Translations under genes and position numbers: made by a program
Notes under the pieces: model-generated
Seen by the model: the letters and a program-made list of their open reading frames with translations, nothing else
What the model was told of the DNA's origin: nothing
Database searches by the model: none
Shown here: piece after piece, positions 15,912 through 57,890 of the stretch
Layout of the letters: every line of letters starts with the position of its first letter
How positions within the stretch are numbered: position 1 is the first letter of the stretch
DNA from: Polynucleobacter cosmopolitanus
Lineage (GTDB): Bacteria; Pseudomonadota; Gammaproteobacteria; Burkholderiales; Burkholderiaceae
Assembly (NCBI RefSeq): GCF_002224225.1
Contig: NZ_NJGG01000001.1
Coordinates: 248,001 to 312,000, forward strand
Reading direction: 5' to 3'
Length of the DNA stretch: 64,000 nucleotides

Positions 15912-16456
15912 GGTTTCGCCTAGCTACATATTCTTTTTGCTTGAGCATCGGTATCGCACTTGGGCTGCTTACCATCCCTGCACACGCGGAAAAAGCCGAC
16001 AAAGACAAACCCATCGCCTTAAGCTCTGACAAAGCTCAATTTGATGACGTCAAACAGATTTACTATCTTGAGCGCAATGTTCTTTTAATCAAAGGCTCAC
16101 TGATCATCAAAGGTGAAAAAGCTGAAGTGAAAATTGATCCTGAGGGCTATCAATTTGTCACCATTTTTGCCAAACCAGGGGAACTCGCCAGTCTTCGACA
16201 AAAAAGAGATACTGGATTTAACGATTTCATTGAGGGTTTTGCCGAGTTAATTGAATATGATGGCAAAACAGACATTGCCATCCTTCAGAAACAAGCCAGA
16301 ATGAATCAAATATCTGGCCCGAGGGTCACCGATCAATTGCATGGCGACAAAATTCATTATGATGGAAACACTGAAAAATATAATGTTGTTTCTAAAGCAT
16401 CTGTGAAATCAACCTTATCACCGCGAAGAAAAGAATTAACAGGACCTTCAAAATAA
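15908..16456 (+). CDS. lptA: LPS transport periplasmic protein LptA
   Basis: LptA forms the beta-jellyroll bridge for LPS across the periplasm. The 182-residue protein starts with GTG at 15908, inside a GTGA overlap with lptC. A signal peptide ends near [11 protein letters not shown]. The mature part contains [21 protein letters not shown] and later [17 protein letters not shown], the OstA-like repeat pattern. The stop TAA shares its last base with the ATG of lptB (TAATG), another translational coupling. Confidence 0.94.
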
Positions 16457-17205
16457 TGAGCAATCACCAATCCACCCTAACTGCTATTGGTCTTCAAAAA
16501 AGATATGGTTCAAGAACTGTTGTTACCGAAGTAGGCGTTGAAGTAAAAAGTGGTGAAGTGGTGGGCTTATTAGGACCGAATGGTGCTGGCAAAACAACTT
16601 CCTTTTACATGATTGTTGGCTTGGTTCCATTGGATGGCGGTGAAATCACTCTTAACGGACAAGACATCACTCATTTACCAATTCATGAGCGAGCCAAGCT
16701 TGGACTATCTTACTTGCCTCAAGAAGCCTCTGTATTTAGAAAGCTGACGGTTGAAGAAAATATTCAAGCTGTTCTAGAGTTACAAGAAGAAAATGACCAA
16801 CCACTTTCCAAAAAGGAAATCCAAAGCAGATTAGATTCATTGTTACAAGAATTACAGATTTCACATTTGCGCAGTAATCCAGCAATGTCATTGTCCGGCG
16901 GCGAACGTCGAAGAGTTGAAATTGCAAGAGCCCTGGCATCACAACCCAAATTCATTCTGTTAGATGAACCGTTTGCTGGTGTGGATCCAATTGCGGTTGG
17001 TGAAATTCAAAGAATTGTGCGATTTTTAAAAGATCGCCAAATTGGCGTATTGATCACCGACCACAATGTTCGAGAAACTTTGGGTATTTGTGATCATGCC
17101 TACATCATCAGTGAAGGTAAAGTGTTGGCCGCAGGCGAACCATCCGCCATCATTGATAACGAAGCCGTTAGAAAAGTCTATCTTGGCGAAAACTTCCGCA
17201 TGTAA
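16456..17205 (+). CDS. lptB: LPS export ABC transporter ATP-binding protein LptB
   Basis: LptB is the cytoplasmic ATPase that powers LPS extraction with LptF and LptG (not in this window). The 249-residue protein contains Walker [16 protein letters not shown]-loop segment [17 protein letters not shown] signature [15 protein letters not shown], Walker [13 protein letters not shown] and switch histidine ITDHNVRET. All catalytic elements look intact. It is coupled to lptA by TAATG and followed 54 bases later by rpoN, as in many proteobacteria. Confidence 0.98.
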
Positions 17206-17259: not shown

Positions 17260-18626
17260 ATGAAAGCATCTCTTCAGCTCAGATTCTCACAAAATCTGGC
17301 CTTAACACCTCAACTGCAACAATCAATCAAGCTCTTGCAGCTTTCAGCCATGGAGCTTGAGCAAGAACTGATTCAGGCGGCTGAACAGAATCCACTCATT
17401 AATTACGAATCTGAAACCAGCCTTTCGGATAAAGAGCCCTTAGAGAATTTTTCACATCTTAGCCTTGGAGGATCAAGGAGCAATCAATTCAGCGATGAAG
17501 ATGATGATCGCCTTTCAAGAATTAGCTTGCAAGAATCTCTCCTTGATTCATTGATTGCTCAAATCAAGTTATTGCGCATCAGCTCTGAAGAAAAAGCCTT
17601 GGTGGGTTTTGTTGCCGGAAACCTCGATGAGCACGGCTACCTAGATACTGATCTAGAAGAGTTGGCGGAAGAACTTAAGCCGCACATGGACCCGGAGGAT
17701 GGCAGCGCTCTTGAAGAGCTTTGGTCAGATTGCAACAACTTGAACCAGCCGGTGTTGGTGCCAGGGACTTAGCAGAATGCCTTCGCTTACAACTAGAAAA
17801 CTTTCCCGCCGACCATCAATTAACCATGGCCTGGAAAATTGCTCACAAGATTTGTAGTGACTATCTTGATATTTTGGCCAACAAAGATTGGGCCAGAATT
17901 AAAAAGCTTTTAAAAATAGATGATGAAGACCTTCAAGACAGCATTCAATTAATCAAAACCTTAAAACACAACCCTGCATCAGGATTTGACACCCATGTTG
18001 ATTCAACCCTGATTCCTGATGTCATTGTTAAAAATCATAAGGGACAGTGGACGGTCGTCCTAAACCCTGCCGCCGCTCCCAAAATAAGCCTTCACGAGGA
18101 ATATGCAAAAGTTATCAAAGATAACCGCAATAAAGAGGGCATGGATGGTTTGCAGCAAAAACTGCAAGAAGCTAGATGGCTGGTTAAAAATGTGCTACAA
18201 AGAAGTGACACCATCTTAAAAGTTGCAAAAGCAATCGTGGATAGACAGCAAAACTTCTTCAATCATGGGCCGATCGCTATGCGACCGCTGGTTTTGAGGG
18301 AAATTGCAGACACGATTGGCATGCATGAATCCACAGTTTCTCGCGTAACCACTCAAAAATACATGGCCACGCCTGCTGGCTGTTTTGAATTCAAGTACTT
18401 TTTTGGCAGCCAAATATCCACCGATACTGGTGGTTCGGTATCGTCAACCGCCATCAGAAGCTTGATCAAACAGGCTATTGCCGAAGAAAACAAAGAAAAA
18501 CCCCTCTCAGACACTCAAATCGTTGATCTGCTGGCTTCAAAAGGGTTTGTGGTGGCTAGACGAACCATTGCCAAATACAGGGAATCTCTGCGCATCCCTG
18601 CCGTTCATTTGCGTAGAAAACAATAG
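17260..18626 (+). pseudogene. rpoN: RNA polymerase sigma-54 factor, interrupted by a one-base frameshift
   Basis: Two overlapping frames together give a full sigma-54 of about 455 residues (E. coli 477). The first (17260-17772) carries region I, RFSQNLALTPQLQQSIKLLQ, and the start of the core-binding region, then ends in an unrelated tail. The second is in the -1 frame; it is open from 17715 and ends at 18626. It begins LVRLQQLEPAGVGARDLAEC and carries the -12-recognising helix-turn-helix (REIADTIGMHESTVSRVT) and the RpoN box ARRTIAKYRE. Conserved sequence switches frame within about 17715-17722, consistent with one lost base (a G in GAGCT or a T in CTTTGG). Both halves are well conserved, so the lesion is either recent or an error in the read or assembly. 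Confidence 0.9.
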
Positions 18627-18636
18627 GGAGCAATAG

Positions 18637-18963
18637 ATGAATATAAAAATCTTGGGTCATCACGTCGAAATCACCCCTGGGATGCGTTCGCATTTAGAAG
18701 ACAAATTAAAAAAAATCAGCGGCCATTTCGACCAAGTACAGAACATGACGGTCACTTTGTCTATTAATAATGAAAAAGAGAAGGATCTTCGCAATCACGC
18801 TGAAATCACGCTTCACCTGAAAGGCAAAGACCTCTTTGCCGAGGCCCACAATGGCGATATGTATCACGCGATGGACTTAGTCGTAGACAAACTCGACAGA
18901 CAAGTACTCAAGCACAAAGAAAAAGTGCAAGATCATCACCATCAAACCTTGAAAAACACTTGA
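18637..18963 (+). CDS. hpf: Ribosome hibernation promoting factor
   Basis: The 108-residue protein belongs to the HPF/RaiA family (formerly sigma-54 modulation protein). It binds the 30S decoding region in stationary phase and inactivates ribosomes. The family pattern is visible: ILGHHVEITPGMRSHLEDKL, VTLSINNEKEKDLRNHAEIT and the C-terminal MYHAMDLVVDKLDRQVLKHK. This is the short form, without the dimerising C-terminal domain of long HPF. A GGAG-like ribosome binding site precedes the ATG, 10 bases after rpoN. The rpoN-hpf-ptsN order is the usual one. Confidence 0.95.
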   Translation: MNIKILGHHVEITPGMRSHLEDKLKKISGHFDQVQNMTVTLSINNEKEKDLRNHAEITLHLKGKDLFAEAHNGDMYHAMDLVVDKLDRQVLKHKEKVQDHHHQTLKNT

Positions 18964-55160: not shown

Positions 55161-56648
55161 TTAACCTTCGTAGGCTGTTTCGCCGTGAGAAGTGATGTCC
55201 AAACCTTCACGTTCAGCATCTTCAGGTACACGCAAACCAATCACCACATCAACCAGTTTGTAGGCAATGAATGACACCACACCTGACCAAACGATGGTAG
55301 TTAATACAGCCTTGGCCTGGATCCATACTTGGCCAGCAATTGAGTAATCAGCTGCTACAGCATTGGCTACGTAGTCATAGATACCTGTGCCACCCAATGC
55401 TGGGGCTGCAAATACACCTGTTAAAAGCGCACCCACAATACCACCCACACCGTGAACACCAAACACATCCAAGCTGTCATCAGCGCCAAGCATGCGCTTC
55501 AAACCAGTCACACCCCATAGGCATAGGAAGCCTGAGATCAAACCGATGATGATGGCGCCCATTGGGCCAACGAAGCCTGCTGCTGGAGTGATTGCAACCA
55601 ATCCGGCAACTGCGCCAGATGCCGCACCCAACATTGATGGCTTGCCTTTACCAATCCACTCCCCCAAAGACCAAGTCAATACAGCAGCTGAAGTTGCTAA
55701 GAATGTATTAGCAAATGCCATTGCTGAACCACCTGAAGCTTCTAGTGCTGAACCAGCATTGAAGCCGAACCAACCGAACCACAAAAGTGATGCGCCAACC
55801 ATGGTCAAAGTTAAGCTATGTGGCTTCATGGCTTCCTTACCGAAACCAAGACGCTTACCGATCACATAAGCACCAACCAAACCAGCCACCGCCGCATTGA
55901 TATGCACCACTGTACCGCCGGCAAAGTCTAATGCACCCATTTGGAACAACCAACCAGAAGCTGCTGTGGCTGCTTCAGCCGCGGCTGCATCAGTGTAAGC
56001 ATCAGGACCTGGCCAGAACCAAACCATGTGAGCGATTGGTAGATAGCTGAATGTGAACCAAAGAACAATGAACAACAACACTGCAGAGAACTTAGCACGT
56101 TCAGCGAACGCACCAATGATCAAACAGCAAGTGATTGTTGCAAACGCACCCTGGAATGAGAAGAATGCAAACTCTGGAATCACAACACCTTTACTGAAGG
56201 TGGCGCCCATTGATTCTGGTGTTAAACCAGCCAAGAAGAGTCGATCAAATCCACCAAAGAATGCGTTGCCTGGAGTGAAGGCAATACTGTAGCCATACAC
56301 CGCCCAAAGAACTGAGATCAACGAGAAGATGACCATGCATTGCATCAACACGGACAACATGTTTTTGCTACGCACTAAGCCACCGTAGAAAAGACCCAAA
56401 CCTGGCAACGTCATCAATATCACTAACGCAGTACAAATCATGATCCAAGCTGTGTCACCTTTATTTGCAACTGGTGCCGGGGCTGCAGGAGCAGCTGGGG
56501 CAGCACTAGCAGCAGCTGCAGCAGGAGCAGTTACAGCTGGCTTTGCTTCATCTTTAGCAAATGCTGGAGATGAGACTGCCATCGTAACGGATCCTAGTGC
56601 CAAAGCTGTTGCACCAGCTGCGAGTAGACGTTTAATCCAATGTGTCAT
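55161..56648 (-). CDS. amtB: Ammonium transporter AmtB
   Basis: AmtB conducts ammonium across the inner membrane and is gated by GlnK. The 495-residue protein has a signal peptide (LLAAGATALALGSVTMAVSS-PAFA), an unusual Ala/Pro-rich linker to about residue 62 and eleven membrane segments. Typical motifs are TLPGLGLFYGGLVRSKNML, FAFFSFQGAFATITCCLI, DFAGGTVVHINAAVAGLVGA (twin-His pore) and DVFGVHGVGGIVGALLTGVF. It follows glnK by 14 bases. The whole operon stands behind a sigma-54-type promoter. Confidence 0.97.
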   Translation of the reverse strand: MTHWIKRLLAAGATALALGSVTMAVSSPAFAKDEAKPAVTAPAAAAASAAPAAPAAPAPVANKGDTAWIMICTALVILMTLPGLGLFYGGLVRSKNMLSVLMQCMVIFSLISVLWAVYGYSIAFTPGNAFFGGFDRLFLAGLTPESMGATFSKGVVIPEFAFFSFQGAFATITCCLIIGAFAERAKFSAVLLFIVLWFTFSYLPIAHMVWFWPGPDAYTDAAAAEAATAASGWLFQMGALDFAGGTVVHINAAVAGLVGAYVIGKRLGFGKEAMKPHSLTLTMVGASLLWFGWFGFNAGSALEASGGSAMAFANTFLATSAAVLTWSLGEWIGKGKPSMLGAASGAVAGLVAITPAAGFVGPMGAIIIGLISGFLCLWGVTGLKRMLGADDSLDVFGVHGVGGIVGALLTGVFAAPALGGTGIYDYVANAVAADYSIAGQVWIQAKAVLTTIVWSGVVSFIAYKLVDVVIGLRVPEDAEREGLDITSHGETAYEG

Positions 56649-56662
56649 TTTGATACCTCGCT

Positions 56663-57025
<363 letters not shown>

Positions 57026-57823
57026 TTAGAATGCTTTAAGAACTGAAACTGCTAAGCCGTCTTTGTAAAGTTTTTTGCCGGCAGCACTAGTTGCATAACC
57101 TTCTGTACCAGGCTTTGTATCGTTAAAGAAATACTTTACGCCCAACATATAACCTTCGTAGTCGTACGTTAAACCAACGTTGTAGTCAGAATATGAAACT
57201 TTGCCGCTTCCATTTACTCCGCCATCATATAAATTGTTTGACCCATTTTTATAATCTGTATAGCCAGCGTGAACTGAGGCTGTTAGCTTAGGCATTACTT
57301 CTTGTGACAAAGTTAGGTCGTAATACATCGTGCCACTTGCATCACCACCAGTTGAAGCAAAATAATTAGTACTCATTACACGGGACACTTTAAATGCTGC
57401 TGGTCCGTATGCGGCGCCAATATAAACTTCACGAGTGTCTGACAAGTTAGGTTTGCTAGCACCAGGATAGTTGTAGTAGATCATCCCGAAATCAAGAGCC
57501 ACACCTGCCAACTCAGTTTTGTAGCCACCATAAAAATCCATCTCTAAATTTGCAGAAGCGTTTGCGGCAGCCCAATCAGAAACATTTGATGCCCATGTGC
57601 CAAGGTAAACGCCTGATTTATGCGCAAAATCAATACCACCTTGAACAGCAGCGTTATCACCATTTTGCTTTAGGCCACGGAAACGATAGTCGCTAGTTGC
57701 ACCAATGTTGTATGCAATCGTGTATTCAGGGGCTGGTGCTGCGGCTTGAGCCAACACTGTGCCAGAAGATAAAGTAGCAGCTGCTGCCAAAGCGATCGCT
57801 GAGAGAGTTAAGTAAGTTTTCAT
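57026..57823 (-). CDS. TorF family putative porin
   Basis: The 265-residue protein starts at the ATG at 57823, which has AGGAG eight bases upstream; the frame from 57850 adds nine unlikely residues. It has a signal peptide (MKTYLTLSAIALAAAATLSS-GTVLAQA). The mature part has alternating hydrophobic strands typical of an outer-membrane beta barrel, with YNIGATSDYRFRGLKQNGDN, ALDFGMIYYNYPGA and NVGLTYDYEGYMLGVKYFF. The N-terminal SDYRFRG motif is characteristic of the TIGR02001/TorF family. It precedes glnK and amtB and may let ammonium or other nitrogen sources cross the outer membrane; that role is inferred. Confidence 0.9.
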   Translation of the reverse strand: MKTYLTLSAIALAAAATLSSGTVLAQAAAPAPEYTIAYNIGATSDYRFRGLKQNGDNAAVQGGIDFAHKSGVYLGTWASNVSDWAAANASANLEMDFYGGYKTELAGVALDFGMIYYNYPGASKPNLSDTREVYIGAAYGPAAFKVSRVMSTNYFASTGGDASGTMYYDLTLSQEVMPKLTASVHAGYTDYKNGSNNLYDGGVNGSGKVSYSDYNVGLTYDYEGYMLGVKYFFNDTKPGTEGYATSAAGKKLYKDGLAVSVLKAF

Positions 57824-57874
57824 ATGTTGCACTCCTAATAAACAATCCAAGGGAAATTCCTTGCAAAGATATTA

Positions 57875-57890
57875 AGCAAAAGCTGTGCCA
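57875..57890 (-). promoter_or_regulatory. Sigma-54 promoter of the porin-glnK-amtB operon
   Basis: On the minus strand TGGCAC (57890-57885), five bases AGCTT, TTGCT (57879-57875) matches the -24/-12 consensus TGGCAC-N5-TTGCW. The invariant GG and GC pairs are exactly ten bases apart. The start codon of the porin lies about 40 bases after the expected transcription start. Confidence 0.88.

Follow-up and report, generated by a model that had tools for sequence, protein, structure and literature searches.

The closest described systems concern the activators of sigma-54 (RpoN) and the loss of the sigma factor itself. According to the available portion of Francke et al. (PMC3162934), changes in the GAFTGA contact loop, above all at its phenylalanine and threonine, mostly abolish activator activity; among homologues that deviate from GAFTGA, proline is the preferred residue at position 4, and altered loops of this kind occur in the activators of two species that lack sigma-54. 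In the accessible part of a second source (PMC10274813), the NtrC proteins of Rhodobacter capsulatus and Caulobacter lack a GAFTGA loop and act, by report or by inference, at sigma-70 promoters. Loss of rpoN from passaged Campylobacter jejuni is recorded in the excerpt of a third (PMC7677240). Our literature search, which was of limited reach, found no published case of a single genus that offers intact, freshly broken and fully lost states for comparison, and nothing linking Polynucleobacter with sigma-54, rpoN or NtrC on such a loss.

Here we consider an rpoN gene split over two reading frames in a 64,000-nucleotide stretch of DNA (the window) from a freshwater Polynucleobacter. At a probability of roughly 0.84, we read the sequence as that of a genome whose only rpoN would have been inactivated recently by a real 10-bp deletion, with the surrounding sigma-54 machinery still undecayed.

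Layout of the split gene

The genome from which the window comes (G000) comprises 1,775,978 bases in 6 contigs and is 99.96% complete. The features around the break are as follows:

16456..17205, + strand: upstream neighbour of rpoN, an ABC transporter ATPase (PF00005, E 9.2e-36), which from its context we take to be lptB
17260..17772, + strand: rpoN 5' frame, with the activator-interacting domain (PF00309, E 4.7e-15) and the beginning of the core-binding domain (PF04963, E 1.6e-10), then out-of-frame residues to a TAG
17707..17719, no strand: perfect palindrome of 13 bases at the junction, with 6-bp arms and a 1-base spacer
Between 17713 and 17714, + strand: point of the 10-bp deletion, its placement ambiguous by one base; the ten bases are present in 15/15 aligned relatives
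17721..18626, + strand: rpoN 3' frame, with the remaining core-binding domain (PF04963, E 4.6e-36), the DNA-binding domain (PF04552, E 3.8e-65) and the RpoN box; the start codon at 17721 is a mechanical assignment
18637..18963, + strand: downstream neighbour of rpoN, an hpf-type gene (PF02482, E 1.6e-25)

The three domains of other sigma-54 proteins can all be recognised here, with PF00309, PF04552 and a two-piece PF04963 above the cut-offs of a Pfam search, but they are spread over two frames. The single open frame of a normal rpoN is absent: the core-binding domain is cut by the 10-bp deletion, where the frame shifts, and the first frame closes at the TAG at 17770-17772. The 3' frame sits one base back relative to the 5' frame, and the break is bounded on its other side by a TGA at 17712-17714 in the 3' frame. 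Both the frames and the Pfam domains agree with the sequence-only reading, made beforehand from the letters and open reading frames, which had placed Region I and the start of the core-binding domain in one frame and the remainder in the -1 frame; its bounds for the switch coincide with the same TGA and TAG. After the deletion, translation would leave the frame and stop at 17770-17772, so that no full-length sigma-54 is expected.

In the 15 relatives fetched with the lptB-rpoN-hpf arrangement, rpoN has the same neighbours as here, except that one shows hpf alone where its contig ends. No second rpoN was found in the window genome: PF04552 matches once and PF04963 solely as the two pieces, so rpoN has no backup copy, and a replacement elsewhere in the genome was rejected as an explanation.

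Nature and age of the break

We aligned the gene with rpoN from 15 relatives, 13 from genome contigs and two from the Polynucleobacter genus set; five of the 15 are 88-90% identical to the window gene. This comparison with sister genomes, which the sequence-only reading had proposed as a check, showed that 15/15 relatives hold ten bases that are missing here and are unsplit at this place. The disabling change is thus absent from close relatives and the split layout is not conserved. Sequence ends and a partial contig (L041) apart, the alignment has further gaps only in two distant relatives, three and six bases in length. The earlier proposal of a one-base frameshift, as a missing G in GAGCT or a missing T in CTTTGG, stands as to the split but not as to its size: the net frame effect of the deletion is the same (-1), whereas ten bases are gone, and a single-base indel at either motif is rejected.

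The junction itself offers a clue to how the bases were lost. The nearest relative, Polynucleobacter sp. AM-26B4 (L038, 90% identical), has the same 6-bp arms around an 11-nt loop, ten nucleotides of which are absent from the window gene. The mutation probably excised most of the loop between the two short inverted-repeat arms, leaving the perfect palindrome. When 10-bp deletions were simulated in the AM-26B4 gene, 7/1298 left such a palindrome, in a test made after the result had been seen. These observations suggest a hairpin-mediated event.

A palindromic junction would also suit an artefact, in which the strain's rpoN is intact and the consensus dropped ten bases at a hairpin-prone spot during sequencing or assembly. 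An undecayed rpoN with everything downstream of sigma-54 intact is likewise what a working gene predicts, and the intact activators and promoters described below would be seen with an assembly error too, which counts against the inactivation reading. Against an artefact, the missing bases lie outside any homopolymer (the longest between 17701 and 17770 is 3), and the surrounding sequence is clean. When the 64 kb were aligned end to end with two sister genomes, G142 (90.9%) and G027 (89.2%), the window row had ten gaps, of which four are not multiples of three: three between ORFs, and the rpoN deletion. In the sisters' rows, frame-shifting gaps are found between ORFs, at the start or end of an ORF, or, within the Gcw_chp gene, as gaps whose lengths total a multiple of three. 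Among ORFs of 120 or more residues, the rpoN deletion is the only frame-breaking gap within an ORF body over the 64 kb against the two sisters. An error of sequencing or assembly, which the sequence-only reading had left as the alternative to a true loss, is therefore less likely, and we regard it as improbable. Judged from the letters, the simplest reading of ten bases lost outside a homopolymer, in sequence that is otherwise clean, is a real mutation.

Could the split gene still yield a working sigma-54, as two polypeptides with a restart just past the junction, or by recoding? The 3' half is free of stops and of excess amino-acid change, and TTG codons are present at 17721 and 17730. The purine-rich stretch, however, stops two bases before the TTG at 17721, the gene is unbroken in 15/15 relatives, and a frame-restored product would still be without some core-binding domain residues. 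No X-XXY-YYZ slippery heptamer starts between 17701 and 17770, just as had been noted from the sequence, and with no homopolymer longer than three both programmed frameshifting, against which the absence of a heptamer had already been argued, and transcriptional slippage are rejected. The lack of decay in the 3' half is already explained by the recency of the loss. A functional split gene thus seems very improbable, more so than an artefact, and we return to inactivation by deletion.

The age of that inactivation can be gauged from codon changes. Private nonsynonymous and synonymous changes in rpoN number 14:50 on the window genome's own branch, 8:24 in G142 and 9:46 in G027. On its own branch the nonsynonymous share of rpoN is higher than that of 47 further stretches of genes picked from the window (14:50 versus 192:1626, p = 0.012), which counts against recent inactivation, though the sisters are alike in this: their rpoN also lies nominally above their other genes (0.33 versus 0.08 and 0.20 versus 0.14). 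Long-standing relaxed selection on rpoN was rejected, there being no excess of nonsynonymous change relative to the sisters. In a model that divides the own branch into a constrained and a neutral part, at most 7-10% of the branch passed without selection on rpoN, a ceiling that rises to 10-14% when the lower limit of the baseline is used; under this model, the loss would fall within about the last 7-14% of the branch.

At twelve positions the window sigma-54 has a residue found in none of the five near relatives. Most of these positions are variable columns, and the most conserved column to have changed, from V to I, has I in 3/20 relatives (20/29 relatives were compared, the nine left out having an unmatched box pattern). 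No further damage to rpoN was seen in the alignment with relatives, the sister gap check or the codon changes, so the earlier impression that the rest of the gene shows no decay holds. On these comparisons we take the inactivation of rpoN by the 10-bp deletion to be real, recent and mechanistically ordinary.

Sigma-54 partners in the window genome and across the genus

Two strong sigma-54 activators remain in the window genome, both with the contact loop GAFTGA. The first, of NtrC type with receiver, AAA+ and Fis-type HTH domains, follows immediately on a histidine-kinase gene; the second carries a XylR_N domain. A target operon also survives in the window:

57875..57890, - strand: sigma-54-type -24/-12 site, perfect by pattern match, of the Gcw_chp-glnK-amtB operon
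57026..57850, - strand: Gcw_chp-family gene (PF09694, E 2e-43), first after the -24/-12 site and presumably porin-like
56663..57001, - strand: glnK (P-II; PF00543, E 4.4e-33)
55161..56648, - strand: amtB, ammonium transporter (PF00909, E 1.1e-119)

This site is the perfect sigma-54 promoter on which the idea of a strain that has just lost sigma-54 while keeping its promoter was first based; together with the codon changes, it supports that idea. A second perfect -24/-12 site lies at C1:584928-584943 of the window genome (L056, L034), with the XylR_N activator on one side and a phenol-hydroxylase-family gene on the other. The phenol-hydroxylase-family locus is an aromatic-degradation operon, which would be silent without sigma-54. 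With sigma-54 gone, both this operon and glnK-amtB should be uninducible.

The window genome has eight perfect -24/-12 sites, versus two for a reversed control pattern. Across the genus, the mean genome-wide count is 6.6 in 61 genomes with rpoN versus 5.7 in 90 without (Mann-Whitney p = 0.06), and the count was rejected as a sign of a live regulon. This near-equality counts against the inactivation reading; because the counts barely differ, the site before the amtB operon is alone informative.

An rpoN match was found in 61/151 Polynucleobacter genomes, with the same counts from a protein query; when only genomes with completeness of 90% or more and contamination of 5% or less are counted, the figure is 49/117. 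A sigma-54-activator domain is present in 146/151 genomes at E 1e-30. A DNA pattern for the GAFTGA or GSFTGA contact loop matched in 54/61 rpoN genomes and in 0/90 others. The rpoN genomes without a loop match are G025, G057, G075, G086, G102, G137 and G140, five of them less than 90% complete. Of 20 rpoN-less genomes sampled, 19 have GAFPGA and 1 has GAFQGA as the NtrC loop, and rarer activator-loop variants are present in the genus when the list of loops is read by eye. Besides the window gene, a short main copy of rpoN occurs among the 61 genomes in G119 (367 aa) and G075 (368 aa) alone, in each case at a contig end or close to one; small additional fragments occur in G069 and G054. A split rpoN together with intact partners is seen in the window genome alone, as gene loss of an ordinary kind that has been caught early.

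Three further genomes may be recorded separately. G109, which has no rpoN match, carries a loop GAFSGA (C3:169973-169995), an exception to the genus pattern that, from its sequence, could be functional. The complete-looking G103 gave neither an rpoN nor an amtB match and has no strong sigma-54-activator domain; it is perhaps the far end of the loss. G096 has two rpoN genes, at C1:1335586-1336479 and C1:1569311-1570210; a GAFTGA activator lies some 3 kb from the former.

The position of rpoN also varies. At the lptB locus of 28 genomes examined, rpoN comes next in five (G005, G032, G063, G116 and G121), G069 has a decayed remnant, and 22 give no rpoN match there at E 1e-3. Nine of the 28, namely G069 and eight of these 22, have rpoN elsewhere. 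In a protein tree with a midpoint root, whose deeper forks are without resolution, the elsewhere-sited copies form two long-branch groups, each supported at 100/100, apart from the lptB copies. The divergent rpoN of G069 (L029:1015-3098), G128 (L023) and G101 (L027) adjoins relatives of FliL-family and bactofilin genes, with Pfam shown for G069 only; at 11 further loci of such copies neither neighbour was matched.

G069 merits its own description. The sequence after lptB (L134:2358-2639) is a decayed remnant of the resident rpoN, yet beside its divergent second rpoN the genome has kept a GAFTGA NtrC and the perfect amtB-operon site. A GSFTGA activator lies about 33 kb from the divergent rpoN, which, with the FliL-like gene near that rpoN, suggests a flagellar sigma-54 set.

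The amtB promoter divides the genomes in the same way as the NtrC loop. A perfect site is present upstream of amtB in the window genome and in 7/7 genomes with rpoN at lptB, and a site at 9/10 or better in 0/13 rpoN-less genomes. Among the nine genomes with rpoN elsewhere, the pair with a GAFTGA NtrC have amtB sites of 10/10 (G069) and 9/10 (G128); the other seven, whose NtrC-type loop is GAFPGA, have no site before the Gcw_chp gene, G018 having a 9/10 site inside it. Since the elsewhere-sited genomes split by loop, the amtB site follows the NtrC loop and not rpoN as such.

A possible course of sigma-54 loss

The window strain seems to be at the beginning of a process of loss that has run its full course in other Polynucleobacter. 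The end states are seen elsewhere in Polynucleobacter (rpoN gone, NtrC without the GAFTGA threonine, the amtB operon without its site), and the order of steps between them is our reconstruction. The window genome may be a natural early intermediate in a move of nitrogen control off sigma-54: the sigma factor would be lost first; the orphaned NtrC would then lose the GAFTGA threonine, mostly to proline, and work with sigma-70; and glnK-amtB would lose its -24/-12 site. In G069 and G128, which have a GAFTGA NtrC, a divergent second rpoN may have taken over the old NtrC circuit. We offer this scheme tentatively, and think it somewhat more apt to be wrong than right.

Each step is known in kind, as defects in GAFTGA, sigma-70-acting NtrC proteins and loss of rpoN under passage appear in the available portions of published accounts (PMC3162934, PMC10274813, PMC7677240). 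As far as those portions go, the NtrC of rpoN-less Polynucleobacter (GAFPGA in 19 and GAFQGA in 1 of 20) resembles both the NtrC proteins without GAFTGA (PMC10274813) and the defective homologues (PMC3162934). In R. capsulatus and Caulobacter the loop is deleted, whereas in rpoN-less Polynucleobacter it is substituted and in the window genome GAFTGA is kept (PMC10274813, same portion). The passaged C. jejuni strains share with the window genome a recent loss of rpoN, but there, in the text available, a deletion of about 8.5 kb is tied to motility (PMC7677240), whereas here the deletion is of 10 bp and nitrogen and aromatic-compound operons are concerned.

What gives the rpoN break its interest is that the partners of the gene remain intact and that the genus displays the later state. 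The loss of a whole sigma factor is usually noticed long afterwards; here it would have been met near the beginning of a loss that is common in the genus. One genus with cultured members holds intact sisters, the freshly broken window genome and many genomes with completed loss. This allows the order of loss (sigma factor, activator contact loop, promoter) to be tested, and also whether NtrC truly switches its RNA polymerase partner.
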